Below are positions 11,909 to 49,655 of a stretch of 64,000 nt of DNA, piece after piece. Source of the DNA: Gammaproteobacteria bacterium (GTDB lineage Bacteria; Pseudomonadota; Gammaproteobacteria; UBA6429; Thiohalophilaceae). The stretch's first letter is position 1. Every line of letters starts with the position of its first letter. The notes below the pieces were generated by a model. The model was given only the letters and a program-made list of their open reading frames with translations, ran no database searches and was not told the DNA's origin. The stretch is taken from the NCBI GenBank assembly GCA_023135195.1, contig JAGLTQ010000100.1, positions 1 through 64,000 of the forward strand, in the 5' to 3' direction. The position numbers and the translations under genes are program-made.

Positions 11909-12019
11909 TTATTTCATGGTTCCCATTTGCTGTATGGGGACTTGCAAAGCAAAAATAACTAAGGCAAACCATATAATACAAATTAAAAGTGAAATATTTA
12001 GAAAGACAAAAGACTTCAT
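11909..12019 (-). CDS. 36-residue single-helix membrane peptide
   Basis: This short frame begins at ATG 12019 with AGGTG six bases upstream, a well-placed ribosome-binding site. It encodes about 36 residues, dominated by one hydrophobic helix (ISLLICIIWFALVIFAL) with a short polar tail. It starts 17 bases after the stop of the 84-residue membrane protein gene on the same strand, so it probably closes a three-gene operon. The function is unknown, and similarity searches would have little power at this length. Confidence 0.6.
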   Translation of the reverse strand: MKSFVFLNISLLICIIWFALVIFALQVPIQQMGTMK

Positions 12020-12035
12020 ATTTACACCTGATTTT

Positions 12036-12290: not shown

Positions 12291-12317
12291 ATATGACTAC
12301 CTAATCCCTTAATATTT

Positions 12318-12863: not shown

Positions 12864-12966
12864 TGGAAACATCCATTTTGTGATTAGTTACTAAAACAGA
12901 TGCGATTTATTTACAAATATCAGGATATTTCGGTAAATTATATACAAGAAAATTTATATTGAATTC

Positions 12967-27313: not shown

Positions 27314-29698
27314 TTAGTTAATTTCCTGAACAAGGCGAAATCCAAACTTATATTTTTTATTAGTAGCTTTTTCTGGACGTCGATTAGCTACCCGTATTCC
27401 TTTATGATTAGATGTCCAACCACCCCCACGCACTATTCGTTTATTACAATTCCCAGTTAACCAAGCATTTCCATTTTTAGGAGCTCCTTTATAATTATCG
27501 TTATAGCAATCTTGAGTCCATTCCCACACATTGCCATGCATATCATAAAGGCCAAAGTCGTTGGAACGATAACTACCTACTATAGCTGTCCCATTCAACA
27601 CACCATCATTTTTGTAATAACATCCTGAAGATTTAGTTCCACTATATTGTGCTTTAGAACAGCTTACTGAATTACCCCAGCTATACTTACTACGGCTACC
27701 TGCACGGGCTGCATATTCCCACTCTGATTCTGTAGGTAAACGGAAGCGCGTCCCTGTTTGTTTACTAACCCATTTAGCAAAATTTCGAGCATCCTGCCAA
27801 GTTACATATATAACAGGTCGATTACCTCGACCAAAACTATTGTCTTTTAGCTTATTTTTACCTACAGCTCTTGCATATGCATCATACTGATTAAAGGTGA
27901 CTTCTTTGGACATCATTTTAAAAGCAGATAATTTGACGGAGTGAACAGGCTTTTCATCAGAGCTATACGTTGATCCCATACGAAAGCTACCTGATGGTAT
28001 ATTTACCATTTCCCCAACATACCCATGTGCAGCAGCAGCCTTTGCAGCCGCTTTAGCTGCAGCTTTTTCTTTAGCCGCCTTAATTTCTTTTAGTTTCGCT
28101 ATTCGCTTTTTTTCAGCTTCTGCAATAGCTTGTTTTTGTTTAGCCACCTCATCGGGCTCCATCCATTTCCCTCTATACTTTATTAAGTTTCCACCTTTTA
28201 AAGTGTAATCACCTTTTAAGGTTTGTTTCTTTTGAACATAAATATTCTCTTTTAAATTATAGAACTTATCTTTCTTTAGAGTTAAAACGTGTTTCCCAGC
28301 AGTTATATTTAATAATGTTGCCGGTGTCGTTTTTTGTGTATATTTATAATCGACATAAATTCGTGCTCCTTCAGGTGTACTAAACACACTGAAATTGCCT
28401 GTAGCAAGTTTAAGCTTGAATTTTTCTTTACTAATAACATTATCTTCTAATGTTATTGTTTTATTCATATCCTGATAATCAGCATGAGTGAGTTTGATTG
28501 TATGCTTTCCAGCCGGAAGATTACTCCCTACATAAGGCGTTTGACCAAGCAAATGCTCATCCAAATACAAATTAGCACCTCGTGGTTGACTATTTATATG
28601 TAGAACAGCTTTACCTTTGGCGAGTTCATTAGATACTTGAAAAGCAAAAATAGCACCAGCAAAAATAATAGCTAGTCCTGTAAAAACAGCCACTCTTTTA
28701 AGTAAAGGTTTTTTAGATTCAGTCACATGTGAATTGTGTGATTTTTTAGCATTAGGTTTTTTATTTTCTATAGCTGCATCAATTGGCGCTACTATCTCAA
28801 CATTATTAATTTCATGTAAAGCTGAAATTAATTCATTCACACTCTGATAACGGTCGCTATCATTTAATGCCGTACATTTATCAATAATGGTAAGGAGTTC
28901 TTCTGAGTAATTATTGTCAGCCACTTCTTTTGCAGAAACAAAAGGGTCAGGTTGCCCTTTGATAACAGCCGTAAGCCGTTTATTAACATCAACAGGATTC
29001 TGGCCGCTAATGATTCGCCACATCACAGCACCAATAGCATAGATATCAGTCCATGGTCCTAATTCACCATCATCACTGATTTGTTCCATGGGTGCATAAC
29101 CCACTGTAAACGGTGCCATGGATTTTGAGTGTTTTGAGAAGTTTTGTTTTGCTGCACCAAAATCAATTAACAGGGGTTGCTCATCTTCACGGCGAATAAA
29201 AATATTACCGGGTTTAATATCCCGATGCAAAACACCTTTGTCATGCACAAAAGCTAAACCATCTAACAAGGCTAGCATCATATTTAATAAATGCTCTTCA
29301 CTTAGAGGGTCGTTGTTTCGTGCTTTCATTAACTCACTGAGAGACAAACCTTCTTCAAAGTCCATAACCAGATACGCTGTACCATTAAGCGCAAAAAAAT
29401 CACGGCAACTAACAATATTTGGATGTTGTTTAAACTGAACGAGTTGTTTGGCTTCGGCTAAAAAACGATCAAGACCATCCTGGTAATCGTTTTCAACACT
29501 GCCACTTAACGGATGAACGGTTGTCCCTTCTCGTGTCGCAACTTCTGAAGGCAGATATTCTTTTATTACAACCACTTCATCTAAATGAGTATGTCGTGCC
29601 TTATATACAATACCGAAACCACCATGAGCAATAATGGATTCTATTTTATATTTATCTATTACTGTTCCATTTGCTAGGGCGTTTTTATGATCTGACAT
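27314..29698 (-). CDS. Ser/Thr kinase-TM-PEGA-FGE sulfatase-modifying-fold protein
   Basis: In this 794-residue protein the N-terminal Hanks kinase (about 15-300) is intact, with K46, HRD 158-160 and DFG 179-181. One transmembrane helix (about 335-357) follows, then two PEGA domains (about 365-500) with INSQPRGANLYLDE and FSTPEGARIYVD. A Lys/Ala-rich helix and a C-terminal FGE/SUMF1 domain (about 565-794) with GSFRMGS, RLPTESEWEYAAR and GNVWEWTQD complete it. The RGGGW segment lacks the paired cysteines of true formylglycine-generating enzymes, so it is probably a binding domain. The topology puts kinase inside and PEGA/FGE outside, as a receptor kinase. Confidence 0.92.
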   Translation of the reverse strand: MSDHKNALANGTVIDKYKIESIIAHGGFGIVYKARHTHLDEVVVIKEYLPSEVATREGTTVHPLSGSVENDYQDGLDRFLAEAKQLVQFKQHPNIVSCRDFFALNGTAYLVMDFEEGLSLSELMKARNNDPLSEEHLLNMMLALLDGLAFVHDKGVLHRDIKPGNIFIRREDEQPLLIDFGAAKQNFSKHSKSMAPFTVGYAPMEQISDDGELGPWTDIYAIGAVMWRIISGQNPVDVNKRLTAVIKGQPDPFVSAKEVADNNYSEELLTIIDKCTALNDSDRYQSVNELISALHEINNVEIVAPIDAAIENKKPNAKKSHNSHVTESKKPLLKRVAVFTGLAIIFAGAIFAFQVSNELAKGKAVLHINSQPRGANLYLDEHLLGQTPYVGSNLPAGKHTIKLTHADYQDMNKTITLEDNVISKEKFKLKLATGNFSVFSTPEGARIYVDYKYTQKTTPATLLNITAGKHVLTLKKDKFYNLKENIYVQKKQTLKGDYTLKGGNLIKYRGKWMEPDEVAKQKQAIAEAEKKRIAKLKEIKAAKEKAAAKAAAKAAAAHGYVGEMVNIPSGSFRMGSTYSSDEKPVHSVKLSAFKMMSKEVTFNQYDAYARAVGKNKLKDNSFGRGNRPVIYVTWQDARNFAKWVSKQTGTRFRLPTESEWEYAARAGSRSKYSWGNSVSCSKAQYSGTKSSGCYYKNDGVLNGTAIVGSYRSNDFGLYDMHGNVWEWTQDCYNDNYKGAPKNGNAWLTGNCNKRIVRGGGWTSNHKGIRVANRRPEKATNKKYKFGFRLVQEIN

Positions 29699-29738
29699 AA
29701 ATATAATTTCTCAATTCAAGTTTTTTTTGTTAAATGAG

Positions 29739-30578
29739 TTATTTAAGAATAGCAAGTAAAAAGGTTGCCCAGAAAGAACGTCCACTTGTAGCATCAATAA
29801 ATTGTCCATTACCTTGCTTTGCAATATTCTTTAACTGTTGTTTCGCTGCGGCATCCTTACCCACTAAAGTTGTTGAAATAACATGACCTTTTTTAGAGGC
29901 AAACCGTCTTACTGTTTTAAATAATTTTGAAGTATCGTCTGAGTGAGCCACGTCATCTGTATAAACAAGAATATATTTTTTCTTTGATTTAGATCTCCAC
30001 GGCATATCTACTGCTGCTCTAACACCTTGATAAAGCGCTTCACCTGAAAAACTATTGCTTCCACCACCTTTACCGATATTTGTTTTTAAATTATTAATGA
30101 ATCTCTCAAGAGATTTTAATTTCGTGCTGCTACTTAGTGTACTTAATTTATAAACTGTTGTTGGTCTATCAAAACCATTGTCGCCAAATACAACAACACC
30201 AATAGCCAGAGATTTAGCCATATTATTAAGCACATCAGCCAGATCAACTATTTCACGTTTTAATGAAGTAATAGAATCACTCATACTTCCTGAAATATCG
30301 AGACAGATAACGACATCTATATCCGGTATTTTTACTTTTGAACCAGCACCTTGTCCACCACTTGGTGCCTTTCCTTTGCTTTTGAGCTTTTTAATTTTTG
30401 ATTTTGCTGCACTTAGTTCCTTTTGTAATTTTTTCAGTTCTGCTTCATTAGAAACCGATGTATTACCAAAGTATGGCAAAGCAATAACAGCTAACAATAT
30501 AAAAGCACCTAACGCTGAGGCAAAAAGATCCAGCGCAGACATGCTAAATATATTGACTTCTCTATTTCGTGTTTTCAT
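29739..30578 (-). CDS. Membrane-anchored vWA protein with ExbD/MotB-like helix
   Basis: This 279-residue protein has one N-terminal transmembrane helix with an acidic residue at its entry (D17 in SALDLF). That is where ExbD, TolR, MotB and ZorB carry their proton-binding Asp. A Lys-rich linker is followed by a vWA domain (about 85-270) with intact MIDAS motif DISGS (D94, S96, S98) and downstream VYTDD. Its operon also encodes a MotA/TolQ-family channel, so I infer the two form a stator-like complex with the vWA domain on the far side of the membrane. Nothing resembling an OmpA peptidoglycan-binding domain is present, unlike MotB or ZorB. Confidence 0.85.
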   Translation of the reverse strand: MKTRNREVNIFSMSALDLFASALGAFILLAVIALPYFGNTSVSNEAELKKLQKELSAAKSKIKKLKSKGKAPSGGQGAGSKVKIPDIDVVICLDISGSMSDSITSLKREIVDLADVLNNMAKSLAIGVVVFGDNGFDRPTTVYKLSTLSSSTKLKSLERFINNLKTNIGKGGGSNSFSGEALYQGVRAAVDMPWRSKSKKKYILVYTDDVAHSDDTSKLFKTVRRFASKKGHVISTTLVGKDAAAKQQLKNIAKQGNGQFIDATSGRSFWATFLLAILK

Positions 30579-30590
30579 ATTTAGCAGTGT

Positions 30591-31982
30591 TTACAAAAAA
30601 TTAACTTTACAGGAAAATGTGCCAATATTTAATTCATCATTATTTTTTAATAATGTAGACTCATCTTTTGCTAATGAAACCCCATTAACCTGAGTACCAT
30701 TAAAGCTTCCTAAATCTGTAACGTGTAATTTATTATCTTCCACTTGCAAGCGAAGATGTAACCTGGAGACCTGCTCGATATTCAACACATGATCTGCATG
30801 TTGACCATGCCGTCCTATTGTTTGACCTTCTTTTGCTCGAGCCAATGTATTTCCGTTAATTTTCAGGCGATGTTCTTTTCCGCTTTCATCAGTACCGACC
30901 AGTAAAATATCATTGAACGTCATAGCAGTTTCTTTTAACTCCTGCTCCATCTGGTCAACTTGTGAGCTTTTCTGCTCTACAGCTATATTAGCTTCTACAA
31001 CTTTCTTATTTCTTTTTCTAATAAGAATAATGCTTATCAACACTATTAAAAATAAAATACCACCCGCCGCATACAACAAGTTTTGTTTTTGCTTTTCTTT
31101 GTCTGCTAGTTCTTTTTTAGATTTTTTATCTGCAGCATCTTTTTTATCTTGTGTTGCTTTTGTTTTTTTATCCGCTTCTTCTTTTTCTTGTTTTAGCTTA
31201 TCTGATTCTTCTTGAGCTGTTTTACTGTCTTTTACACTTTTATCCTGCAACTCTTTGTTCTTTTTCTTTAAAGCATCAGCCGATTTTTTTGCATTTTTTG
31301 TTTCTTTCTTCTCTTTAGCTAATTGTTCTTCCGCTGTTAAACATTTACCGCTTGATTCAACAAAACTTACTTTTGAGCTTTTAAAAAACTTTTTAAGCGT
31401 ACTTAATTCAGACGCAGTATTTGTTGCTCCTGGCTTTTCAAGCCCTAAGGTAAACACACCAACTACTTTGGCTTGATTTAACCCAATTAATTGCCCACAG
31501 GTGTTTAATACTGGAGAACCATGTTGATGCACATTAAATGGCGCAGAATGGACTATCCGGGCAGATTTAACGTCTTCATTTGGTTTTACTATTTGAGTTA
31601 AAACCCCTTTGGTTTTTTTTGTTGCAGACAAACCAAGTAAAATAGGTTCACCTACTCCTGGCATCTTTTTAGAAATTTGAATTGGCTTACCGCTCAAACC
31701 ATTGGCCTTCAACAAAACTAAATCATCAAGCTCTGAATGACCTGTTTTTTTGCTCAATAGTTCTGCATTGGTTTTCCTGTCTTTAATAATATATTGGTCA
31801 CCTAAGCTTAAAAGCGCATTACTGGTTAACACGTGAGTCTTATCAACAATTACACCAATACCTTTGGCTACTTCTTTATTATCTTTAAGTACTTTTACAT
31901 CAACCAAAGAATTGGCGCTTACCGAACTCACCATTACAATTGTGAGAAGAAATATTTTAATTATTAAAGAACCGTAACGCAT
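30591..31982 (-). CDS. Degenerate trypsin-like domain-TM-FHA protein
   Basis: This 463-residue protein has a signal peptide, then a DegP/trypsin-like domain (about 25-205). The catalytic residues are mostly lost: Ala56 stands at the His position (VLTSNALLS), D87 is kept (DLVLLK), and His154 stands at the Ser position (HQHGSPVLN). A long Lys/Glu/Asp coiled coil (about 220-300) follows, then one transmembrane helix (about 304-324) and a cytoplasmic FHA domain (about 370-463) with TIGRHGQ, VSRLHLRL and GSFNGTQVNG. It looks like a sensor: an inactive protease fold outside and a phosphothreonine reader inside. It is 12 bases upstream of the vWA gene. Confidence 0.88.
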   Translation of the reverse strand: MRYGSLIIKIFLLTIVMVSSVSANSLVDVKVLKDNKEVAKGIGVIVDKTHVLTSNALLSLGDQYIIKDRKTNAELLSKKTGHSELDDLVLLKANGLSGKPIQISKKMPGVGEPILLGLSATKKTKGVLTQIVKPNEDVKSARIVHSAPFNVHQHGSPVLNTCGQLIGLNQAKVVGVFTLGLEKPGATNTASELSTLKKFFKSSKVSFVESSGKCLTAEEQLAKEKKETKNAKKSADALKKKNKELQDKSVKDSKTAQEESDKLKQEKEEADKKTKATQDKKDAADKKSKKELADKEKQKQNLLYAAGGILFLIVLISIILIRKRNKKVVEANIAVEQKSSQVDQMEQELKETAMTFNDILLVGTDESGKEHRLKINGNTLARAKEGQTIGRHGQHADHVLNIEQVSRLHLRLQVEDNKLHVTDLGSFNGTQVNGVSLAKDESTLLKNNDELNIGTFSCKVNFL

Positions 31983-32017
31983 GTATTACTCCAGTATCTT
32001 GTTTATATGTTATGTAT

Positions 32018-32833
32018 TTATTTCTTACCTGACGCTGTAGCCACATCTTCTACTTCTGCCTGATCATCTAATTCTGTATCACCATCCAGGAACGAAATAG
32101 CAATTACAGAAGCGTTGTCTTGTCCTGGCCGTTCATGTTGTTCTACTCGCTCTAAAATCTGAAAGGTTAATGCTTTAGCATTGCCATCATTATCATTTGC
32201 CATTTCCAACAATTCTTCTTCTCTGCAAGTTTCAACTCCATCACTTGCTATGAGCACTGTACTGTTAGACGTAATTCCTAATGGATTATCAGGCGCATCC
32301 ACCATCTGAATGTCATCACCCATTACCGCTTCTAATAATTGAGATCTTTGTGGTGAAAAACGGGCTTCTTCCTCAGTGATTTCACCTTTTTCAACCTGTT
32401 TCTGTAATACGGCTGCCATAGAGTGATTTTCATTAATCCGTTCGATTGAGTCATTTTCAATTAACCACATTGGACTATCACCCACACTAATCCATTGTAT
32501 TCTTTCACCATCGGTTAACATGGCGACGAACGTAGTACCCATTCCATCCATATCAGGATTTTCTTCGACATAATCGTAAATAGCATCATTGACTTGTTGC
32601 AGGCAGTCGATAAAGCGTTCTTTTATATTAGCTATCTCACTTTCTATAAATGCACGATGAAATACACCAACCGCGATCTTACTTGCTTCACGACCACCCT
32701 TATGTCCTCCCATTCCATCGGCTAAAACAGACAACCAATTACTATCATCTATCTGAAAGACTTCCAGACTATCTTGCTGTGTTTCTCGTTTACCTATGAT
32801 TTGATCACAAGCAGCATCAACATTGAAAAGCAT
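32018..32833 (-). CDS. PP2C-type Ser/Thr phosphatase
   Basis: This 271-residue protein has all core PP2C motifs: the ETQQDS acid, LADGMGGHKGG, MGTTFVAML, SVGDS, SDGVET and GQDNAS. The metal-binding aspartates are present, so it should be active. It is cytoplasmic, with no membrane segment, and ends with an acidic tail. It lies 6 bases from the FHA gene at 32840. The likely job is to dephosphorylate threonines placed by the two kinases, in particular those in the FHA protein motifs. Confidence 0.93.
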   Translation of the reverse strand: MLFNVDAACDQIIGKRETQQDSLEVFQIDDSNWLSVLADGMGGHKGGREASKIAVGVFHRAFIESEIANIKERFIDCLQQVNDAIYDYVEENPDMDGMGTTFVAMLTDGERIQWISVGDSPMWLIENDSIERINENHSMAAVLQKQVEKGEITEEEARFSPQRSQLLEAVMGDDIQMVDAPDNPLGITSNSTVLIASDGVETCREEELLEMANDNDGNAKALTFQILERVEQHERPGQDNASVIAISFLDGDTELDDQAEVEDVATASGKK

Positions 32834-32839
32834 TTACAT

Positions 32840-33607
32840 TTAGTCCTCTACATTATCCCAGGAGAAATCTGGACTACAAAAGGGAACAAATCGAAGTGTT
32901 GTTTCACCTAATATAATTTCACAATTAGCTTCTAACACTGTTGGCGCTAATACAGGTGCATCATTCATATATGCTAAATTACTACCCGTACCCTGGGAGA
33001 TATAAAACTGTTTACCTCTAGGATCAAAAGTAATCATGGCATGATTTTGTCGGGAAATTTGTCCATCACCGAAATCTATTTTTATACGTTCACTATTATC
33101 TCGGCCAATTGTATTTTGACCAAAGCCTACCTGCATGACATGCCCCATCCCTGGCCCATTAATAATGACTAGCCAGCCTGCAAGAGGATCACTCATTGGA
33201 TCGGCAAGATTATTATCAGAAGTTTGTATGTTATTTTCTGATGTTCCTTTTGATTCTGCTGCTTTAGCTTTCTTTCGACCTCCAAAAATTTGAGTTTTAG
33301 GCTCAGAGAGATCTGCACTAACATCTGGAGTACTAGCTTCTTCTTCATTTTTTTGTTTATGCCGTCCACCAGGTACAGTTGGGACATCATCAGGAAATAA
33401 AGATCCTCCACCCGAGCGCTTTTTAGCAGGAGCAGCTCCAGATGATCTTGCTCCACTCATAGCGCCCTTACCTTCCGGGGGTATAGTGGGTTCATCACCA
33501 CCATAACCTTGTGGCGAAGGTGTATTACTCGATGCTGTATTTTTATTTTTAGCCGGTACAGTTGGCACATCTACTGGTAAACCATCGGGACCCATCTTTT
33601 TAGCCAT
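32840..33607 (-). CDS. FHA protein with repeated Asp-x-Pro-Thr-x-Pro motifs
   Basis: In this 255-residue protein the N-terminal half (about 1-140) is low-complexity and contains three copies of D-(V/E)-P-T-(V/I)-P around T16, T41 and T77, and a related EPKTQIF at T105. The C-terminal half is an FHA domain (about 150-240) with NTIGRDNSERI and ISRQNHAMI. The motif set looks like kinase target sites that the FHA domains of the cluster could read, as with T6SS Fha and mycobacterial GarA. It has no membrane segment. It is the neighbour of the MotA-like channel gene and the PP2C gene. Confidence 0.88.
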   Translation of the reverse strand: MAKKMGPDGLPVDVPTVPAKNKNTASSNTPSPQGYGGDEPTIPPEGKGAMSGARSSGAAPAKKRSGGGSLFPDDVPTVPGGRHKQKNEEEASTPDVSADLSEPKTQIFGGRKKAKAAESKGTSENNIQTSDNNLADPMSDPLAGWLVIINGPGMGHVMQVGFGQNTIGRDNSERIKIDFGDGQISRQNHAMITFDPRGKQFYISQGTGSNLAYMNDAPVLAPTVLEANCEIILGETTLRFVPFCSPDFSWDNVED

Positions 33608-33629
33608 TGTTCAATACTCCTTCACAAAT

Positions 33630-34436
33630 TTATTCTTCGTATAATCGATTAATCAGGTTATCAAGACAGTATTGACCGCTGCCATTTAATGCCATTTCTT
33701 CTCGCGCCTGAGCAACATGCATCATAAAAACCAAGATTGCAGACATAACTAATGCCACTAAGGTGGTGTTAAAAGCGACACCAAGACTTGTGGTTAGTAC
33801 TCCCACCCAGTCCTTAATCGCCTGGCTATCTCCAATGTTTGGCATTGCACTCGCATCAGATAAGGCCATTGCAATACCAATAACCGTACCAATAAACCCT
33901 AGTGTTGGAATTAACCACATAATATAGCGCAACATATTATATTTAAGATCAATTTCATGTTGCATCAACTCAAGACTGGTATTCATTAAGTTATTCGCTT
34001 GTTCGATAGATTTTGTTATTTGAAACTGCATAATCACGCGTTTAAGTAAACGTCGTAGAAAAAATTTGTGATATGAACGTAATTGAGTAACATTTTTATA
34101 AATAGGTACTAAATCTTTTGAGCGCAACATTGTCGCTTCGTCTTCAGGTAATAAAGAATAATCAAGTTGTTGATACTCTTTTGTGCCATGCTCAAATCTA
34201 ACCCAAAGCTCACCAAACCCCAGGAAAAACATCAACCACATAATGTTTTGAATGGTAAAAGGGAAAAGTTCATTACGTACATCAAGTAACACATCAGACA
34301 TGAAAATCTGACCTTTTGCATCACCTGGATCAGGTAATATCAACCATAAACCGAGAATAACGATACATGCCATCATCAGCGAGACTAAAGCAACAATAAC
34401 TCGATATTGTTGATCCTGTTTATAATTTTGTTGCAT
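33630..34436 (-). CDS. MotA/TolQ/ExbB-family proton channel
   Basis: This 268-residue membrane protein has an N-terminal helix pair (about 14-33 and 60-80), a cytoplasmic helical region, and two C-terminal helices with the family signature: TLGFIGTVIGIAMAL and LGVAFNTTLVALVMS. Pore-lining Thr and Gly residues are kept. The extra N-terminal length, and the FHA genes on both sides, separate it from the housekeeping exbB at 54287. I infer that it forms a pentameric stator-type channel whose dimeric partner is the vWA protein at 29739. Confidence 0.9.
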   Translation of the reverse strand: MQQNYKQDQQYRVIVALVSLMMACIVILGLWLILPDPGDAKGQIFMSDVLLDVRNELFPFTIQNIMWLMFFLGFGELWVRFEHGTKEYQQLDYSLLPEDEATMLRSKDLVPIYKNVTQLRSYHKFFLRRLLKRVIMQFQITKSIEQANNLMNTSLELMQHEIDLKYNMLRYIMWLIPTLGFIGTVIGIAMALSDASAMPNIGDSQAIKDWVGVLTTSLGVAFNTTLVALVMSAILVFMMHVAQAREEMALNGSGQYCLDNLINRLYEE

Positions 34437-34457
34437 CTTTATTTTCCTTGATGGTAC

Positions 34458-34811
34458 TTAAACTTCTACTTCACCCGTTAATACGTTTCGTTTTGGTTTA
34501 ACGCTAAGAGGTTCAGCCTCATAATTATTTTTCTGTTTTACTGGAGCTGATAGTCCTGATACTAAATCTTTCATAAGAACACGATATTTACCAAAAGCTA
34601 TGTAATCTCCCAGCTCAACATAGCTATGGGTAAATTGTTGCCATTCATTATTACGCAGTACGAAGGTACCCCAGGTACTATCGCAGTCAATTACGTAATA
34701 TCGTGAATTATTAACAAATGATATTTCAGCGTGATTACGAGAAACAGTTTCATCATCTACGACTATATTAGAGACTTCTGATCGTCCAATGGTAAAGGTC
34801 TTAAATGTCAT
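34458..34811 (-). CDS. Stand-alone FHA-domain protein
   Basis: This 117-residue protein is an FHA domain with TIGRSEVSNI, VSRNHAEI and DSTWGTFV, plus a short C-terminal tail of about 30 residues with Lys/Glu/Pro. It binds phosphothreonine peptides in the cytoplasm. It is the first gene of the minus-strand operon, 21 bases before the MotA-like gene, and divergent from the transmembrane PP2C gene. As the smallest FHA protein of the set, it may be an adaptor between the channel and phosphorylated partners. Confidence 0.9.
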   Translation of the reverse strand: MTFKTFTIGRSEVSNIVVDDETVSRNHAEISFVNNSRYYVIDCDSTWGTFVLRNNEWQQFTHSYVELGDYIAFGKYRVLMKDLVSGLSAPVKQKNNYEAEPLSVKPKRNVLTGEVEV

Positions 34812-35062: not shown

Positions 35063-36631
35063 ATGGTTGAAGTTAAAGTACTAACAGATATTGGCGGACG
35101 TGAAGAAAATCAAGATCGAGCGGCATACTTTAAAGATGAAGAACATAATGAAACGCTTATAATCATCGCCGATGGCATGGGTGGTCACAGTGGTGGCAGC
35201 CTTGCAGCAGAAACAATTATTCAAACAGCGGAAACCGCCTGGGCTAATCGGAAATCGGCTTCTGATATTGAAAACTTCCTTAATACTATGGTGATGGATG
35301 CACATAAAGCCATCAATAAAATTGGCAAAGAAAAGGGCATGGATCCCCACTCTACCCTGGTTGCCTTATACCTAAGCGCAGATCAAGCTATTTCAGTTCA
35401 TGTTGGAGATAGTCGCATTATCCAATTCAATGACAATGGTTATGTTAAAAGAAGCATGGATCACTCAATTGCTCAGTTGTTTGTTCTACAAGGAAAAATC
35501 ACTGAAGAAGAAATGGCCAGCCATCCTGACCAAAATAAATTAACCACTAGTATGGGCGGTGAAGATGAACCTGATCTTGAAATTACCCATTGGGCATTAG
35601 AGGAAGGTCTTAAATTTATTCTATGTTCAGATGGTTTTTGGGAAATTGTTAATGTCGATACAATGAGCTCAATTCTTAACTCTGAAAACCTGATTGAATC
35701 ATTACAAAACAGAACCCGGGATGCGCTCCGTTTAGCATCAGATGACCAAGATAATACAACCGCGGTGGTGGTTAAAATTGCTAATGAAAATAAAAAAAAA
35801 TCACTAACATCTAATTATATTCTTATTACTGCATTTGCAATTATAATTCTATCAAGCTTCATGTTCTTTTCTGAAAATAAATCAGAAGATATAACCACCC
35901 AGCATGGAGTTGAAGATAAAAAAGCTCAGACCGATACTACACCAGTCAATCCAGAAACTATACCAACAAAAGAAGAACTTGACGAGCTGGCTAAAATACT
36001 TAAGTTACAAAAAATTATTTTACCCTATGCTAATAAGTTTAATGAAGACAAAGTAAAGAGTGATAATGAAGAAAACAATAAAGAAACGAATAATAAAGGC
36101 TCTTCATCAAAGTTAGGAAAACAAAGCACTGTTGAAGAGGAAGTAGAAATAATCATTACAAACTCTAGTCAAACATCGGCAAAAGTAACTGAACATTTAA
36201 GAAAAAATGGCGTCATCGGCAAAGATGACAAGTTAATAGCAAGCAGAAAAGGAAAGTTGATTAAAGAGACGAATAGCCGTATCACACAACATCAACAAAT
36301 GCACAAAGGTATTTTTATATTAGGGGCGGTAATAACAACTGTTGAACAAAATGGAAAAATTACTGTTCTACAAGGAAAAACCAGCCCTAACATTACTATT
36401 TCAATCATCCCGACTCTCAATTATATGCAAGCCTTAAAAAAATCTAGAAAGCATACAAATACAATATTTGAAAGTAAAGAGACTGGCTCACTTATCATTA
36501 TCAAACAACCTAACGAATATGTCCTTGCCTGGATAGGTCGAGTAAGTAGCAACATTGAAGAAGTAATTGTTATGAATGCACATACTGCAGAGATTATATT
36601 ACGCAGACCAATAATAATAAGTGGTAAATAA
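35063..36631 (+). CDS. Transmembrane PP2C phosphatase with PepSY/FTP-like C-terminus
   Basis: This protein of about 522 residues starts with an active PP2C domain (about 1-235): REENQDR, IADGMGGHSGG, HVGDSR, SDGFWE and QDNTTAV. One transmembrane helix (about 248-267) follows, and then an extracytoplasmic domain of about 250 residues. The last 50 residues (YVLAWIGRVS, IVMNAHTAEIILRR) resemble PepSY/FTP domains of thermolysin propeptides. The next gene, two bases on, encodes a thermolysin-family protease. The start at 35063 has GGGA upstream and matches the PP2C N-terminus; a TTG at 35015 is open but unlikely. Confidence 0.88.
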   Translation: MVEVKVLTDIGGREENQDRAAYFKDEEHNETLIIIADGMGGHSGGSLAAETIIQTAETAWANRKSASDIENFLNTMVMDAHKAINKIGKEKGMDPHSTLVALYLSADQAISVHVGDSRIIQFNDNGYVKRSMDHSIAQLFVLQGKITEEEMASHPDQNKLTTSMGGEDEPDLEITHWALEEGLKFILCSDGFWEIVNVDTMSSILNSENLIESLQNRTRDALRLASDDQDNTTAVVVKIANENKKKSLTSNYILITAFAIIILSSFMFFSENKSEDITTQHGVEDKKAQTDTTPVNPETIPTKEELDELAKILKLQKIILPYANKFNEDKVKSDNEENNKETNNKGSSSKLGKQSTVEEEVEIIITNSSQTSAKVTEHLRKNGVIGKDDKLIASRKGKLIKETNSRITQHQQMHKGIFILGAVITTVEQNGKITVLQGKTSPNITISIIPTLNYMQALKKSRKHTNTIFESKETGSLIIIKQPNEYVLAWIGRVSSNIEEVIVMNAHTAEIILRRPIIISGK

Positions 36632-36633
36632 AT

Positions 36634-38847
36634 ATGTGTAAAAAAACATGGTGTTTTGTTACTTTCTTTAGCTATATATTTTTTGTTAATTCAACTTATT
36701 CCAGAAGCATTATGGACGATCAGCTTCCGCCTGATAATAATGGAAGCTACCAAACAATCATTATAGAAAACGGTACGGAGCTAAAGTCGACAAAAGATGT
36801 ACAACAATGGGCTCAAAAAGAATTACACAACTGGATGGGCCTATCTGAAAATGATCAACTTGATATAAGTTTCCCCGAAAAATCAAAAGGAAATTATAAG
36901 TTTTATCGCATCGAACAAAAACACCATGGAATTCCAGTTATAGGACTTGAAGCAACACTATTAACATTCAAAGGGAAACCGGATTATATATTAGGCCGTA
37001 ATCACGCTATTAATAATATTCGACACAAACCATCCATCACCGAACAACAAGCAATTAACAATAGTAAAGTGATTACTGATAAAAAGAATGAAATTAATTT
37101 AGTTTACTGGCGCAAATCAAAAAGTGATATCACTTTAAGTTATGAAATTACAGGTACCTTTGAATACAAATCTGGTACAAGAGATGAAAAAGTTTATGTT
37201 AATGCTGTCAATGGAAAAATCCATAATCGAGTAGCATTAGAATATAGTTCGATTAAAAGACATATTGTTGATGTTGAATCCGCGTGTCGGGATCTTGGTA
37301 TCAACCGACCTGTTTCTTCCAAAAAAATGAATAAAGTTTTAGATCATGCAATTCGAAATTTTTCCCGAAAAGAAGGTGATGCCCCTACAGGCATAGAAAC
37401 GACTGATTATTTTTATGATCTAATGGGAAGTGCTTATATATTCCTGAAAACAACATATAACATGGATAGCCTTAATGATTCGGGTATGTATTTAAATGGT
37501 ATTGGCCGAATACGATTTAATCAGCATGTCAAAGGCATACAGTGTACTGGCAATGATTTTAATGCTTTTTGGAATGGCCATGCAAATGCACTTTTTGTAC
37601 CTGACTCAGCTATAAAATATACTGAGGTCGTTGCTCATGAGCTTGCTCATGGCATTGTTAGCAATGGCAGCAACCTTGTTTATCAAGATCAATCCGGAGC
37701 ATTAAATGAAGCCATTGCAGATGCTATTGGCGTTACATTCAGAGCATGGTTAGAATCAGGTGGGAATGAAAATAATGCTGTTACTAAAATAAATACAAGA
37801 AGAGGCATTTGGAAATTAAGAAGTCCCAGAGGCATTTTAAGGGATATGAAAACCCCTAAAAATGCTGATCCCAAATTACCGGATCATATGAGTAGCTATG
37901 TGTACACCAGTCGAGACCACGGTGGTGTTCATATAAATTCGAGTATTATCAATCAAGCATTTTATATTCTAAGTAAAGGTGGCAAACATCCCAGACGAAG
38001 AACCGGCTCCCGAGTTAAAGGCATAGGTATTAAGAAAGCGAGTCAAATATTCGCTCTCGCTGCCAGTCATATTTTAACTCCTACATCAGATTTTAAAGAT
38101 GCACGTTATGCCTTTGCCCGTGCCGCCAAGGTTCTATTTGGCAAACGTTCTCATGCCTGGGTTGCTGTGCATAAAAGTATGGATGCCGTAGGTATATCTG
38201 GCAAATGGAGTATCCCTAAGCCAAGAAAGGTTGTTGTTATTCCTCCAGCTAAAACAACAACAAAGAGTACTACAAAAATACCGACTACAAGTACAAGCTC
38301 AACTAAAACAGCTCAGGTTCCCTCAAAAACTTCAAAAACAAAAGGGAAATCAACAACAAAATCTAAATCACATTCATCTAATTCAAAAATATGGATAGCC
38401 CTTATAATTATTGGCGCTATGTTAATTATTTTTGTTTTGATAAAAATGCGACCTAATGATAAGCAAGTCGTCGGACAGTTTGAGAGAGAGACTGATAAGT
38501 CTGATGAAAATAATAAGGATTCAATTAATCAAAATATATTTGGTCATCTTGAAGCTTTAGATGGTACTGAAGCTATCCCATTAAACAATGCATTATTAGA
38601 CAGTGAAGAAGGTTTGATTATCGGTAGAGCGCATGAACTAGTTCACATCATCATGGAAAACAAAGATATTTCGCGACGTCATTCACGTATTAAATTATTT
38701 AACTCTCAACTATATATAGAAGACATGAATTCAACTTATGGTACACAAGTTGATGGTGTCAAACTCAGTCCATTTAAACCTTCTAAAATCAGTGAACAAC
38801 AAATTGTACGTTTTGCGGGGTTCTCTTATCAGCTAAAGTTAGGTTGA
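36634..38847 (+). CDS. Thermolysin-family (M4) protease-TM-FHA protein
   Basis: This 737-residue protein starts with a signal peptide, then an FTP/PepSY propeptide region (about 45-205). The M4 catalytic domain (about 230-525) is complete: HELAH at 335-339, zinc ligand E359 and proton donor H433 in GVHINSS. A Thr/Ser-rich linker, one transmembrane helix (about 587-606) and a cytoplasmic FHA domain (about 640-737; LIIGRAHE, ISRRHSRI, STYGTQVDG) follow. M4 enzymes are normally secreted, so a membrane-tethered form with a phosphothreonine reader is unusual. It is translationally linked to the transmembrane PP2C gene. Confidence 0.93.
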   Translation: MCKKTWCFVTFFSYIFFVNSTYSRSIMDDQLPPDNNGSYQTIIIENGTELKSTKDVQQWAQKELHNWMGLSENDQLDISFPEKSKGNYKFYRIEQKHHGIPVIGLEATLLTFKGKPDYILGRNHAINNIRHKPSITEQQAINNSKVITDKKNEINLVYWRKSKSDITLSYEITGTFEYKSGTRDEKVYVNAVNGKIHNRVALEYSSIKRHIVDVESACRDLGINRPVSSKKMNKVLDHAIRNFSRKEGDAPTGIETTDYFYDLMGSAYIFLKTTYNMDSLNDSGMYLNGIGRIRFNQHVKGIQCTGNDFNAFWNGHANALFVPDSAIKYTEVVAHELAHGIVSNGSNLVYQDQSGALNEAIADAIGVTFRAWLESGGNENNAVTKINTRRGIWKLRSPRGILRDMKTPKNADPKLPDHMSSYVYTSRDHGGVHINSSIINQAFYILSKGGKHPRRRTGSRVKGIGIKKASQIFALAASHILTPTSDFKDARYAFARAAKVLFGKRSHAWVAVHKSMDAVGISGKWSIPKPRKVVVIPPAKTTTKSTTKIPTTSTSSTKTAQVPSKTSKTKGKSTTKSKSHSSNSKIWIALIIIGAMLIIFVLIKMRPNDKQVVGQFERETDKSDENNKDSINQNIFGHLEALDGTEAIPLNNALLDSEEGLIIGRAHELVHIIMENKDISRRHSRIKLFNSQLYIEDMNSTYGTQVDGVKLSPFKPSKISEQQIVRFAGFSYQLKLG

Positions 38848-43463: not shown

Positions 43464-46400
43464 ATGGCTAAGATAAATACACTATCACAAGAAAATAGTT
43501 CTTATAAAGCATTTATTTGCTGTAGTTCTACTGAACATGAATGGGGGCATTGGTTAAAAAAAGCATTTACAAAATATAAGATACCCCGCTCGTTAATTGG
43601 AACTCAGAGAAGAGATGGAACAGTCGGACAGAAAATTGGGGATGTATATCTTGATTTAAATGAAACATCAAAAAGCTCTAATCTAGGTGCCCGGATACAG
43701 AGTGATTTAGAAAAAGCATCTTATCTTATTGTAATCTGTTCACCTGCAGCAGCCCGCTCCGAATGGATTGCCGAACAAATTATCGAGTTTAAACGACAAG
43801 GTAAAGAAAACAGAATTCTCTCATTTATTATAGACGGCGAACCTAATGCTATAAATAAACCTGAATTAGGACTGGAAGAATGCTTTCCTGACGCATTAAA
43901 ATATTGCATTGGTTCAGATGGGCAGTTAACAAATAAACGAACCGAACCCATTGCCGCCGATGCTAGACCAGGAAAAGATGGCAAAACGAATGCCTCCTTA
44001 AAAATATTAGCCGGTCTCTTAGGTGTTAATTATAATGATTTACGACAAAGGGAAGTTATACGTAAACGTCGCAAACAGTTGTTAGCAACGACTACTGTAA
44101 TTATTATTATAGGTGGATTATTTTCCTGGTGGCTAAAGGGATATCTGGAAACACTGGAAAAGCAACAGCTAGTCGATATTGCAGAAATAAAAAGAGACCT
44201 GGCAAGCGCACGAAAAGCTATCTCATTAAAAAATTGGCCATTAGCCATTCGGTTATTAAAAAACACAGTGATAAGTAATGATGACTTAATAAATGATAAA
44301 CAAAGACAAAGAATCGCTGTTGACCTTCATTACGCCTTACAGAAAAATAAAAAAATAACAGTTCTAAAAAACCATACTTCAGCAATTGTATCAATGGATT
44401 TCAGTCCCAATGGCCTTTTATTTGCCAGCTCTGATAAAGAAGGTAATATCATTATCTTCAATAGAAAAACGTGGATAGAAGTTGCTCGATTTAAAGATAA
44501 GAAGCCACGTAATATCTGGTTCTCAAGTGATAGCAAACAACTTATTTCTCTAGCGAAAGAGTCATGGGGCGACAGTTATGTTAAAAGCTATAACACCAAC
44601 TCTATGATTGAAAAAACTATTTTTAGCATAGACGATAAAGTCAGAAATATAAATGCTAAGTACTGGAGTCATAATCGAGATTATATAATCGTTAAAGATT
44701 GGAATGACAACCTAATACTGAAGAAACTTGAGAATGACAAGATTATTACTATCACAAATCCTGAAAAATTCTCGATAAGTCAGGTATTACTCGACCTTTC
44801 AAAAGAATCGATATTTATTTTCGATGCAAAAAAAGGTTTGATAAAAAAAGAGCTGAAAACAGGAAAACTATTATTCAAGAATATTCAATGTAAACATACT
44901 TATAATTCCTTGCCGGTTTTTTCAGATAATTATTCTAAATTAGTCGTAAGAAGTGAACGTAATAAATTTATATTATGTGATTTAGGCAATAAAAACATAA
45001 ATTTTACAATTAATACACGATACAGAGATCAAGTTCAGTTTAATCCAAAAGGCGACAAAATATGGTTTAAACGTGGTCATTCTCAAATAACGTGGGATAC
45101 ACATACACATCTGTTTGATAAAAGTATGGTTTTTCCAATAGTTGAACTATTAAATAATTCAATCGATACAAGCTTGAACAAACTTAAAACAAGCTATGAA
45201 TCAATATGGATTAAATCAAAAGATAATGATGTGGCAGCTCTTACAAACAGTAGCGTAATAGAAATTATTGATATATCAGCTCCTCATTCAATAAGTACTA
45301 ATAAATTACCTCCACTAAAAAGAGTTGAGGAAGGCGATCATGGATTTCATGCAGCGTACTTGAATACTATCCAGTCTAACAAACTCCAACTGTTAAATAA
45401 GTTTTTTACTGCACAAGGGGCTACCTTCAAGTTAGCCGATGGTAAAGTTTTAAAAATGCTTTCACCCTCTATTGGTGAAAAATATATAGTTAGAGTCGAA
45501 AAAAAGATTGGTTTATCTGAGTGGCCAGAATTAACCGTTTCTGAGTTTGATTCAGGAAAAACTATTTTTCATGTTGAAAAACTCACTACCTGGGCCTTTG
45601 ATAAATCTCGTGCTCACCTTATATTCATACAAAAAGGTGGTGAGCTGCAATCAATAGATTTTTCAAAAACATCCATAGAAATAAAACCAATTAATTTACC
45701 TGCAACGGAGGGCTTCTCACGGTTCTTCGGTGGAAATAATAAAGATTATTTTATACGAATATCGGCTGATTATAAAATAAACATTATTAAGCTAAAAACA
45801 TTAGACGTTATGCCCCCTATTCAACTTGACATTCCATCTGAAGAAAAAAAGTGGGGGAGTCCTGTTTATGGAACCATAAAAGCAATATTTGATAATCGTT
45901 TTTTATTAATAAAAAGTAATAATCAGCTCTCTGTAATAAATTTAGAAAACCGATTACCACCGAAAATAATAGAAAGAACTCAGGGTGCCTCGCTATATAA
46001 AGCGATTCAATTTCCACGCATTCTAATTCAGCAAGCTAACAATAATGTACAAGAAATTGATGTGACAGAAGAAACACCAAGACATACATATTCATCATTA
46101 CCACTATTTTTTAATGGTGTGGCAACTTCGCTTTCTGATAATTATTTAATTTTATATGATTATAATGATATTTACTGGATTAACAGAAGAAAGGAAACCA
46201 CCACAAAATTACGCTGTGCAGACGAAAATGCAGAACATTATAAGTTTGATAAAAATAATAATATATTAATAGTCGCATCATCAAAAAACATTTGTGTATT
46301 AGACTCAGAGTCTTTATTGCCCGTTTCCCATCAATCTTTACCCAGCAAAATAATGAGCATTTTTCTTCAACAGAAAGACAGCTTTTCTGTTCTCCTTGAA

Positions 46401-46508
46401 TCTGGTAACCAATTATTATTCAAAATCAACTTATCTTTACCTGTCTTACTTAAAAATGCAGATAATGAACTTGCCTTTATCTATGAAAGAAAATTAAAAA
46501 AATTATAA
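43464..46508 (+). CDS. TIR-TM-beta-propeller protein, copy 2
   Basis: In this 1,014-residue protein the TIR domain (about 10-150) has KAFICCSST, LIVICSPAAA and the putative catalytic E104 in WIAEQI. The FRDxEELP loop of the other two TIRs is replaced by YLDLNETS, a notable divergence. One transmembrane helix (about 211-230) is followed by a C-terminal region with scattered WD-like blades (FSPNGLLF, FNPKGDK), much less regular than in the 16925 gene. It lies in the operon with the next TIR gene, 3 bases apart. The propeller half probably recognises a target or a partner. Confidence 0.85.
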   Translation: MAKINTLSQENSSYKAFICCSSTEHEWGHWLKKAFTKYKIPRSLIGTQRRDGTVGQKIGDVYLDLNETSKSSNLGARIQSDLEKASYLIVICSPAAARSEWIAEQIIEFKRQGKENRILSFIIDGEPNAINKPELGLEECFPDALKYCIGSDGQLTNKRTEPIAADARPGKDGKTNASLKILAGLLGVNYNDLRQREVIRKRRKQLLATTTVIIIIGGLFSWWLKGYLETLEKQQLVDIAEIKRDLASARKAISLKNWPLAIRLLKNTVISNDDLINDKQRQRIAVDLHYALQKNKKITVLKNHTSAIVSMDFSPNGLLFASSDKEGNIIIFNRKTWIEVARFKDKKPRNIWFSSDSKQLISLAKESWGDSYVKSYNTNSMIEKTIFSIDDKVRNINAKYWSHNRDYIIVKDWNDNLILKKLENDKIITITNPEKFSISQVLLDLSKESIFIFDAKKGLIKKELKTGKLLFKNIQCKHTYNSLPVFSDNYSKLVVRSERNKFILCDLGNKNINFTINTRYRDQVQFNPKGDKIWFKRGHSQITWDTHTHLFDKSMVFPIVELLNNSIDTSLNKLKTSYESIWIKSKDNDVAALTNSSVIEIIDISAPHSISTNKLPPLKRVEEGDHGFHAAYLNTIQSNKLQLLNKFFTAQGATFKLADGKVLKMLSPSIGEKYIVRVEKKIGLSEWPELTVSEFDSGKTIFHVEKLTTWAFDKSRAHLIFIQKGGELQSIDFSKTSIEIKPINLPATEGFSRFFGGNNKDYFIRISADYKINIIKLKTLDVMPPIQLDIPSEEKKWGSPVYGTIKAIFDNRFLLIKSNNQLSVINLENRLPPKIIERTQGASLYKAIQFPRILIQQANNNVQEIDVTEETPRHTYSSLPLFFNGVATSLSDNYLILYDYNDIYWINRRKETTTKLRCADENAEHYKFDKNNNILIVASSKNICVLDSESLLPVSHQSLPSKIMSIFLQQKDSFSVLLESGNQLLFKINLSLPVLLKNADNELAFIYERKLKKL

Positions 46509-46511
46509 ATT

Positions 46512-49500
46512 ATGCATCAACTTAAATATAAAGCTTTTATTAGTTACAGCCATCAGGATTCTACGTTCGGTGATTGGTTGCACAAACAATTAGAAACGTT
46601 TGTGATACCAGGAAGTTATGTTGGTAAACAAGGAAGAATAGGTAAAATAAGTAATAAGCTGTTCCCTATCTTTCGAGACAGAGAAGAATTACCAACGGCA
46701 ACAGACCTTGGTGAAGTTATCGATAATGCTATCGAAGAATCTGCGAGTCTTATTGTAATATGCTCACCTCGGTCTGCAAAAAGTCTCTGGGTAGACCAGG
46801 AAATTATTAATTATACAAAGATACACGGTAGTAATAATATCGTTGCTTTAATTGTTGATGGGGACTTTGATTCAGAAAAACCCTACTTGAGTAATGCCCT
46901 TCCTGATTCACTATTACGTTTGTCAGAAAACACAGAGTATGGTGGAACAAATTCCAAGGTAAAATTGATAGATGCTCGTTCCGATACCAGCTCAAAAAAT
47001 AAAGCTTTTTTAAAGCTAATCAGCTTTTTATTGAACATTACTGATAAGCAACTCCAGAAAAAAGTTCAGCGTAGAAAATATATTACAAGTAGTATTGTTG
47101 CAGCATTAATTATAGCCATAAGTGCTTTTGCATTATTTATTCAAAACACAGCAAAGCAGGAACAAAAAGAAAAAGAAATAGCTTTAGTTCAGACAAAAAA
47201 TAATAAAAAGATAGCAACTATACATTCAAAGATAAATCAAGGTCGATATGACCAGGCATTAAAAATTGGCCAGTCAATTTTAGAGCAAGATATTATGGGG
47301 TTATCTGCTAAATTGAATGAGAAATTAATGCTTCCACTGCATAACTCCTTCCTAAATAACAGAATAATTACTCGACTATCAACACATACGTCAGAAATAG
47401 AAAATCTGGAAATAAGCCCAGATGGTTCACGTTTATTATCTACTGATCTAGGTGGTAATACTCGGCTTTGGAATACAAATAACTGGAATGAAGTAGCACA
47501 TTGGAAATCTTTATCAGGCGCAAGGGTGAAAGCATGGTTTAACAGCAATAGTAACCAAGTTATCATTTACAGTGGAGCATTTCAAAGTAACTTTAAGGTC
47601 AACACCTATAGTGCCATTAATGGTAAACCTTTAACTTCTGGTTTAAATATAGCCAAATCAGGTGCTTTAAATATTCCTTTTTGGAAGTACAATCCGGATT
47701 ATATTATTAGTCGCCGTTATGAGATAGTGGGAAAAAATGGACAACAAAAAGAAATTGGCTATCTCAGCTTTTATGACCTGGATCTTAACCTTATCAAAGA
47801 ACTAAAAACCCCGTCATGTGGTGAATATTATTATTTACAGTTAGCAATTGTTTTGGAGAAACCAACACGTTTTTTGATTGCTGATAAAGAATGTGGAGGC
47901 AATATCTATCATTCACAAGAAAACATAAAGCCTTTCTTTGATAAAAATCTACGCCATTCTAAAGTTATAACCAGTAAGATATTACATTGGAACAAAAATA
48001 ATCAACAACTTGTTACCAAATCAAGTAAGGACGAGTATCACCTATGGTCTCTATCTGAACAAAAAAAGTTACTATCTTTTAAAACCCCACATCTTATAGG
48101 TTTAGAAATAAATGCAGATGAAAAATCAGTAGTCACGTATAGTTGCGATGAAAAATTATTTGCATGTGACGTAAAAATCAGACTCATATCTAAAAACAGT
48201 AATAAAGTACTTACAAATAATCTTAGCCCAAGATATCACCGTTCACGTAAAAATATAAATATAACCGATGGTAGTTGGTTAGAGATTAGTAATAATTATG
48301 TACAAAGAATTTACCCTAGCTTAGGTATTAAAACTCAACTTACCAGTACTAAAAATAATTGGGAAAAAGATAGTGGCAAAATCGAACCTGATAATAAATG
48401 GATAGCTGTTGCTGATGGTTTAAATATTTCAATTATTGATATTAGAAATAGCTGGTTGTCACATGAAAAGGTTAGTGTGGAACCAGACACATATACATTC
48501 ACCCCATCAAAAAAATATTTCTTAACTACAACAGAAACAGAAGAAGCATTTTTGTCTACTTCTGATTTTTCACAGCATGGTAAACCAATAAAACTGGAAT
48601 ATTCGACGAAGGATAGATTTAATTGGTCAAAAGATGAAAATACTCTCTTAATATCATCGTTACCAGTACACCATACTGAACCTGCTGGTTATGCATTATG
48701 GGTAGACTTCAAAAAACACCGTTTAATCAAACGAATTAACCATGTTTATGCCAGCTGGATGAATCGAACAGGAAATAAACTTAAACTTTTCAATGATGAT
48801 GGAAATATTGTCAGCTTAGATATAAAGAGCCCTCGCTCTGAAAAAGTTTTTGTGAAGCTCGATAATATAAATAGCAGGCAAGCCATGTTTTCACATGATG
48901 GGAAAATATTAGCCGCTATTGACAATAAAACATACACATTAAAATTAATTAATACATCTTCAGGCAAGTTAATTTTAGACAAAGAAGTTTTTAATAATGA
49001 TGAAATGAAATATAGTAAAATATATTTCACACCATATGATGACAAATTGATAATTCAACCTAATGATAAACCACTTATTATATTAGACACTACTAATCTA
49101 CAACAAGTTGTAAAGTTACATAATTTACAGGGATTATACTTAAATAAAATAATATCCAATGATTACCTTTTACTACAAGGTAATGGATTGACTCAATTAC
49201 GCTCTATATCTGATAAAGATATAAAAATAGACCTAAGCAAATATACTAATAACTCTATATCTGCTACAACTACGTATTCAAATAAAAATAAACTATTAAT
49301 CGAAACATATGAACCAAATTTTATATTGGTTGACTTAAAAGGAATAAAAACACCGGAGTTATTAACTTGTGATGGGGTAAAACCTTCCAAGATGATTATT
49401 AACTGGGAAAAGAATATTTTAGTTTCAATTGTCAATAAAGATCTATGTATATCAACTTTAGACACACGTCAGACCATTTACAGAACACCTCTAGCAACTA

Positions 49501-49655
49501 ATTTTGTTTATGCTATGAATTATCTTGCAAAAACCAACCAGGTAGTTATTGTTTATCGACATGGCATTAAGGTTGTATATCAACTTCAGCAAAATAACAT
49601 CACAAAATTAATTGACAGTATAAAAAATATGGTGAAATATATACCCAACAATTAA
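46512..49655 (+). CDS. TIR-TM-beta-propeller protein, copy 3
   Basis: This 1,047-residue protein has a TIR domain (about 1-150) with KAFISYSHQD, FRDREELP, LIVICSPRSA and the putative catalytic E97 in WVDQEI, all the landmarks of NADase-type bacterial TIRs. One transmembrane helix (about 195-213) follows, then a charged coil and a degenerate WD40 region (ISPDGSRLLS, TRLWN). It is closer to the 16925 TIR than to its direct neighbour at 43464. The tandem arrangement suggests the two TIR chains may form a mixed assembly. It is followed by the cNMP-binding gene 46 bases on. Confidence 0.87.
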   Translation: MHQLKYKAFISYSHQDSTFGDWLHKQLETFVIPGSYVGKQGRIGKISNKLFPIFRDREELPTATDLGEVIDNAIEESASLIVICSPRSAKSLWVDQEIINYTKIHGSNNIVALIVDGDFDSEKPYLSNALPDSLLRLSENTEYGGTNSKVKLIDARSDTSSKNKAFLKLISFLLNITDKQLQKKVQRRKYITSSIVAALIIAISAFALFIQNTAKQEQKEKEIALVQTKNNKKIATIHSKINQGRYDQALKIGQSILEQDIMGLSAKLNEKLMLPLHNSFLNNRIITRLSTHTSEIENLEISPDGSRLLSTDLGGNTRLWNTNNWNEVAHWKSLSGARVKAWFNSNSNQVIIYSGAFQSNFKVNTYSAINGKPLTSGLNIAKSGALNIPFWKYNPDYIISRRYEIVGKNGQQKEIGYLSFYDLDLNLIKELKTPSCGEYYYLQLAIVLEKPTRFLIADKECGGNIYHSQENIKPFFDKNLRHSKVITSKILHWNKNNQQLVTKSSKDEYHLWSLSEQKKLLSFKTPHLIGLEINADEKSVVTYSCDEKLFACDVKIRLISKNSNKVLTNNLSPRYHRSRKNINITDGSWLEISNNYVQRIYPSLGIKTQLTSTKNNWEKDSGKIEPDNKWIAVADGLNISIIDIRNSWLSHEKVSVEPDTYTFTPSKKYFLTTTETEEAFLSTSDFSQHGKPIKLEYSTKDRFNWSKDENTLLISSLPVHHTEPAGYALWVDFKKHRLIKRINHVYASWMNRTGNKLKLFNDDGNIVSLDIKSPRSEKVFVKLDNINSRQAMFSHDGKILAAIDNKTYTLKLINTSSGKLILDKEVFNNDEMKYSKIYFTPYDDKLIIQPNDKPLIILDTTNLQQVVKLHNLQGLYLNKIISNDYLLLQGNGLTQLRSISDKDIKIDLSKYTNNSISATTTYSNKNKLLIETYEPNFILVDLKGIKTPELLTCDGVKPSKMIINWEKNILVSIVNKDLCISTLDTRQTIYRTPLATNFVYAMNYLAKTNQVVIVYRHGIKVVYQLQQNNITKLIDSIKNMVKYIPNN

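Follow-up and report, generated by a model that had tools for sequence, protein, structure and literature searches.

Here we describe a pair of adjacent genes in a 64,000-nucleotide stretch of DNA from a gammaproteobacterium of the Thiohalophilaceae (assembly GCA_023135195.1, contig JAGLTQ010000100.1, positions 1 to 64,000 of the forward strand), hereafter referred to as the window. The upstream gene (35063-36631, + strand, ATG start) encodes a 522-residue membrane phosphatase of the PP2C superfamily that ends in a protease propeptide module of the M4 type, and the downstream gene (36634-38847, + strand, ATG start) encodes a 737-residue M4 (thermolysin-type) metalloprotease with a propeptide of its own, a transmembrane (TM) helix and an FHA domain. 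The two genes are separated by 2 nucleotides.

Domain organization of the two proteins

The phosphatase begins with a cytoplasmic Ser/Thr phosphatase catalytic domain of the Stp1 type (35063-35785, + strand), which was identified through Pfam PP2C_2 (E 4.8e-16) and the Stp1 structure 2pk0 in the PDB (E 7e-29), and in which a motif check found the metal-binding motifs DGMGG, GDSR, SDGF and DN intact. Its score against the NCBIfam model Stp1_PP2C_phos (152.4 bits) lies below the curated cut-off of 230, and the protein is a member of the PP2C superfamily that is not filed under the Stp1/IreP equivalog. In PADLOC it matches only the generic PP2C models PDC-M21C and no defence family. The catalytic domain is followed by a TM helix (residues 252-270; 35816-35872, + strand; Kyte-Doolittle peak 2.23) with the residues KKK just before it; with four Lys/Arg residues before the helix and one after, the charge rule predicts an N-in, C-out topology with a cytoplasmic phosphatase. 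A low-complexity linker (residues 271-354) connects the helix to the C-terminal part of the protein, which we term the arm.

The protease begins with a probable signal peptide, placed approximately at 36634-36699 (+ strand) from the sequence MCKKTWCFVTFFSYIFFVNSTY, followed by its own (cis) propeptide (36745-37248, + strand; 44.5-45.8 bits with the custom hidden Markov model (HMM) described below) and by the M4 catalytic domain (37249-38208, + strand; Pfam Peptidase_M4_C, E 4e-40). The active site is intact by motif check, comprising HELAH (37636-37650), the third zinc ligand in SGALNEAIAD, and DHGGVHINS. Past a Thr/Ser/Lys-rich linker, a TM helix (residues 585-603; 38386-38442, + strand; Kyte-Doolittle peak 2.88) leads to a cytoplasmic FHA domain (residues 662-727; 38617-38814, + strand; Pfam FHA, E 2.1e-13), which possesses the phosphopeptide-binding residues GR...SRRH...N and is predicted to read phospho-threonine. 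The original prediction for this locus, made from the sequence, had correctly recognized the next gene as an M4 protease with its own propeptide, but had described the FHA domain as internal, when it lies at the C-terminus beyond the linker and the TM helix. As the M4 family is defined by its catalytic domain, the protein is an atypical member: the C-terminal helix and FHA domain tether it to the membrane, in place of the soluble secreted state that is typical of the family after maturation. The protein has no match in PADLOC.

The phosphatase arm is an M4 propeptide module

The extracytoplasmic arm (residues 355-522; 36125-36628, + strand) consists of a full FTP+PepSY propeptide module, about 168 residues long. 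Its resemblance to PepSY/FTP domains had been predicted and is borne out, while the predicted extent, the last 50 residues, was too short. Pfam FTP gave E-values of 0.056 for the whole phosphatase and 0.012 for its C-terminal piece, with a score for the arm (15.9 bits) below the cut-off of 21; the genuine propeptide of the neighbouring protease, scored as a piece, did no better than the arm (E 0.16). Since Pfam was ambiguous, we built a custom HMM from 32 gammaproteobacterial M4 propeptides, from which both window proteins were left out. This HMM matches arm residues 404-514, spanning the FTP and PepSY halves, with 25.6 bits, compared to 9.9 bits for the best of 2000 shuffles and 4.2 bits for the next unrelated open reading frame among the 178 in the window. 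Pfam FTP exceeds its cut-off of 21 in the arms of the fused orthologues described below (35.7, 30.4 and 24.9 bits) and in one free arm (L111), and PepSY reaches 20 bits, against a cut-off of 24, in the arm of orthologue L089.

An AlphaFold2 (AF2) model of residues 355-522 has a mean pLDDT of 95, and its top matches in the PDB are the cleaved propeptide chains of the vibriolysin MCP-02 (Z 15.5 and 15.1). In the alignment with 3nqz_A (Z 15.5, rmsd 2.6, 152 residues aligned), residues 1-166 of the model correspond to chain residues 28-204; the alignment thus reaches chain residue 204 with two arm residues left over, which puts the C-terminus of the arm at the natural pro/mature junction. Further matches include 4k90_B, a chain of an Aspergillus extracellular metalloproteinase (Z 12.5), YycI (Z 8.8) and YpeB (Z 8.7). 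Since the AF2 input alignment included M4 propeptides, we take the model as confirmation of the fold and the HMM as the independent test of homology; the PP2C, modelled from a single sequence, gave a pLDDT of 36.5 and was unusable. The structure comparison thus returned a cleaved M4 propeptide, and no unrelated fold, as the best PDB match of the arm. Together with the HMM score, which exceeds chance, this supports the original proposal of a propeptide-like module at the end of the phosphatase, predicted to lie on the outer side of the membrane.

Arm and protease are paired in related loci

A scan with the M4 catalytic core identified loci with the same divergent organization in UBA5109 (L089) and NORP41 (L090, L091), and a profile search of 371 genomes from the order of L089 added four more (L109-L112). 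In NORP41 the locus occurs on two contigs of nearly identical sequence, probably representing an assembly duplicate. In four genomes (the window, L089, L090 and L109; window-type loci), the fused PP2C-TM-arm gene is followed by a protease with propeptide, TM helix and FHA domain, and the window arm shares 27-30% identity with the other fused arms. In the remaining three (L110, L111 and L112; variant loci), a free TM-anchored arm of 243-246 residues is encoded directly before an M4-TM-FHA protease whose signal peptide joins the catalytic domain directly, the absent block being exactly the propeptide. Across the 95 proteins of the seven loci, the custom HMM marks the seven arms and the four cis propeptides only; it finds nothing in the L110-L112 proteases, while their free arms match. 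As the arm is the only propeptide encoded in these three loci, it very likely serves the neighbouring protease. L110 (15625-16827) and L112 (2857-4164) also carry a separate TM phosphatase gene with another conserved periplasmic C-terminus, ending in ...RQLLRSSTVSMEVL.

Arm and M4-TM-FHA protease co-occur in 7/7 loci, and in each the gene for the arm lies immediately upstream of that for the protease, the two overlapping or lying no more than 48 nucleotides apart. Two well-covered loci that possess the surrounding core cluster (see below) without an M4 gene, L124 and L128, have no arm either; at the divergent position, L128 has an armless PP2C. No member looks decayed, since each retains the motifs for catalysis and binding in PP2C, M4 and FHA: the M4 HEXXH motif, downstream Glu zinc ligand and catalytic His are kept in all seven proteases, and in the alignment so are GR and SRRH of the FHA domain, with the Asn present in six. 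The TM layout by Kyte-Doolittle analysis places arm and M4 domain on one side of the membrane and PP2C and FHA domain on the other. The arm-protease pair recurs in unrelated bacteria, and comparative genomics offers strong indirect evidence for the predicted action of the arm on the protease, or contact with it, in trans.

The M4-TM-FHA protease was absent from the 39 other genomes of the window's order that were searched, and M4 searches at class level yielded only ordinary secreted proteases that have no TM-FHA part. Plasmid searches nowhere recovered the M4-FHA or PP2C-arm proteins at 80% coverage, and searches of Pfam, NCBIfam, PADLOC and the open-licence literature gave no precedent for the arm-phosphatase/M4-TM-FHA architecture.

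Evolution of the arm

A phylogenetic tree of propeptides contains separate clades for the four PP2C arms (99/93), for the four cis propeptides (100/99) and for the three free arms (99/80). The arm clade and the cis-propeptide clade split before the genomes diverged, indicating that both copies have been kept, and the arm is an old, retained part of the phosphatase. An origin of the arm by recent duplication of the neighbouring propeptide within the genome is ruled out, since arm and cis propeptide fall into separate supported clades across four genomes. A single clade for all arms (p-AU 0.116) and a single clade for arms together with cis propeptides (p-AU 0.176) were each neither supported nor rejected. 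The arm-bearing phosphatases share a clade of PP2C domains that excludes the cluster's soluble PP2C, and the catalytic domains of the M4-FHA proteases fall into one group (SH-aLRT 82). GC content over approximately 8-52 kb of the window is 32-37%, compared to 37-41% in the flanks; this lower GC, together with the absence from further genomes in the genus and family, would fit a horizontal acquisition.

The surrounding gene cluster

Divergent from the pair, a core cluster on the - strand (27314-34811) is found in all seven pair loci, in part for L111. Starting from the pair, it encodes a small FHA protein (34458-34811; orthologue in L109), a MotA/TolQ/ExbB-like channel protein (33630-34436; Pfam E 8.7e-12; 53-63% identity to relatives), a further FHA protein (32840-33607) and a second, soluble PP2C of a clade separate from the arm PP2Cs (32018-32833), both identified by domain search and relatives, the latter also by its tree position. 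These are followed by a protein with a trypsin-like domain, coiled linker, TM helix and FHA domain (30591-31982; Trypsin_2 27.4 bits, cut-off 27.6; FHA E 1.6e-14) and, again by domain search and relatives, a TM-anchored VWA protein (29739-30578) and a Ser/Thr kinase with PEGA and FGE-sulfatase-like domains (27314-29698). Across loci the core kinase carries PEGA and often FGE. As the periplasmic trypsin-like domain is tethered through a TM helix to a cytoplasmic FHA domain, a protease-TM-FHA arrangement is a recurring theme of the cluster. L124 and L128 have the core but not the pair; the stretch of L128 that was read shows no kinase. PADLOC matches the core kinase to generic kinase models and, weakly, the MotA protein to ZorA. 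The core looks like an uncharacterized ion-channel and phospho-signalling system.

Large WD40 proteins flank the cluster (16925-20086, 43464-46508 and 46512-49655, + strand), at least two of them with a TIR domain by Pfam, and near these lie a kinase (20111-22381), a subtilase (22403-23173) and a GAF protein (23187-23990). The low-GC stretch with its WD40/TIR proteins is possibly a conflict or defence island. In L109, an ABC transporter with two N-terminal FHA domains (11100-13535, + strand) is encoded directly downstream of the M4-TM-FHA protease. We take this transporter to be reminiscent of Rv1747.

A proposed transmembrane pair and its alternatives

We favour a reading, to which we assign a probability of roughly 0.62, in which phosphatase and protease form a transmembrane pair: the arm would act as a trans propeptide on the M4 domain and thereby place PP2C beside FHA, with binding, inhibition and coupling being what we infer. 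The phosphatase would reside in the inner membrane, its PP2C domain facing the cytoplasm and the full propeptide module the periplasm, and the protease would be anchored so that M4 faces the periplasm and FHA the cytoplasm. The arm may then dock onto M4 in trans as cis propeptides do, its free C-terminus occupying the position of a cleaved propeptide's end, and once docked could aid folding or keep the protease inactive after removal of the cis propeptide. Docking would bring PP2C close to the FHA domain and to phosphorylated proteins that associate with it, such as the cluster kinase and other FHA proteins. If the arm undocked or were cleaved, the protease would be released and local dephosphorylation would change; the original prediction had likewise proposed a coupling of proteolysis to dephosphorylation inside. 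In window-type loci the arm would serve as a second propeptide, able to re-cap the protease once its own is gone. The passage of PMC6490944 that cites Kessler and Safrin (1994) describes M4 propeptides as chaperoning folding, staying bound after cleavage and inhibiting the enzyme.

Several considerations weigh against such a pair. Only seven loci are known, three of which form one close group, and the window arm is the most diverged member, with PV replaced by FI and a conserved Glu by Val. The fold also appears in regulation without M4 proteases, as in YycI and YpeB with the Z-scores given above, and DbfQ, a PepSY protein, has a histidine kinase as its target (PMC12714742). Moreover, since the window-type protease keeps its own propeptide, folding does not strictly depend on the arm, and since the variant arms are unfused to a phosphatase, not every member requires a coupling to dephosphorylation.

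The same components could be connected differently, for example if the arm were a substrate that the active protease clips, changing the localization or activity of PP2C in a one-way signal from outside to inside. The long low-complexity linker ahead of the arm and the joint presence of membrane-bound M4-TM-FHA and PP2C-arm proteins in all window-type loci would suit this idea, as would a dual role of soluble M4 propeptides as inhibitor and substrate, which the title of Chang (2007), as cited in PMC3327674, reports for V. vulnificus. We nevertheless consider it unlikely, as the compact arm model shows no obvious labile site and cleavage alone leaves unexplained the free anchored arm beside a propeptide-less protease, where the arm would need to stand in for the propeptide. 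That substitution in three loci also argues against the arm being a generic extracytoplasmic sensor for another partner or a metal, similar to YycI, YpeB or DbfQ, its adjacency to M4 merely reflecting the gene of origin. PepSY-type folds do have such roles (YycI and YpeB among the matches; PMC12714742) and the window arm is without some residues conserved in propeptides; given the strict co-occurrence and adjacency with M4-TM-FHA in seven loci, and the absence of an arm from both well-covered M4-less core loci (0/2), we find a sensor of this kind quite improbable.

The tight coupling of a protease gene with that of a putative inhibitor could alternatively point to an effector-immunity or toxin-antitoxin system, with the protease as harmful effector and the arm as its immunity inhibitor, which is how protealysin and emfourin, encoded in one operon, have been read (PMC9505478). 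Here, however, the protease is tethered to the membrane and carries a cytoplasmic FHA domain, its signal peptide is the sole secretion signature, and the putative inhibitor is part of a phosphatase that looks active and is encoded within a signalling cluster, making this a very doubtful explanation. The homology of the arm to M4 propeptides and its position directly before an M4 gene could finally be ascribed to a chance fusion, a functionless fragment left on PP2C from a duplicated M4 gene. Such a fragment is scarcely credible and already contradicted by the data: the fusion has been kept in four genomes, with 27-30% identity between the window arm and the others, the reading frame is intact, residues are conserved, the model is well folded, and the arm clade predates the genomes.

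Returning to the transmembrane pair, a more specific version can be offered tentatively, at somewhat less than even odds. The two proteins may constitute a new transmembrane signalling device, in which a trans protease-propeptide handshake outside the membrane, with the active site occupied by the arm or the arm displaced by substrate or by the self-cleaved propeptide, would set the position of PP2C relative to FHA-bound phosphoproteins inside. To our knowledge, the regulation of bacterial Ser/Thr phosphatases from outside the cell is largely unknown, and M4 propeptides are known as components of the protease they belong to rather than of signalling proteins. Should the arm bind the protease in trans, the pair would be a natural case of an M4 propeptide working between molecules, and would link extracytoplasmic proteolysis physically and directly to cytoplasmic phosphorylation. 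The variant with a free arm and a propeptide-less protease makes this idea testable with purified proteins.

Comparison with known systems

Several described systems share individual features with the pair. Protealysin and emfourin likewise combine an M4 protease and a protein inhibitor in the same operon (PMC9505478), but by their descriptions emfourin belongs to a distinct inhibitor family, protealysin is intracellular, and no phosphatase, TM helix or FHA domain is mentioned. In YpeB-SleB, YycI and DbfQ, membrane or periplasmic PepSY-type domains of a related fold regulate a partner enzyme or kinase (PMC13393411, PMC12714742); their partners are a cortex-lytic enzyme or sensor kinases rather than M4 proteases, and there is no PP2C fusion. 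PP2C phosphatases of the Stp1/PstP type, which operate with Ser/Thr kinases and FHA proteins, belong to the same family and have kinase and FHA partners nearby, but are without a propeptide-like extracytoplasmic domain, and the window PP2C falls below the NCBIfam Stp1 cut-off. BlaR1-type receptors employ a different type of protease and signal through repressor cleavage, not through FHA or PP2C domains. What they have in common with the pair is a metalloprotease in transmembrane signalling (PMC3356374). The propeptides of M4 proteases such as MCP-02 (PDB 3nqz/3nqy) and LasB share with the arm a common fold, the order of FTP and PepSY, length, the conserved Q/G/P/G/L positions and an end at the pro/mature junction; however, theirs lie at the N-terminus of the protease itself, whereas the arm is carried by a separate membrane phosphatase or a free membrane anchor.

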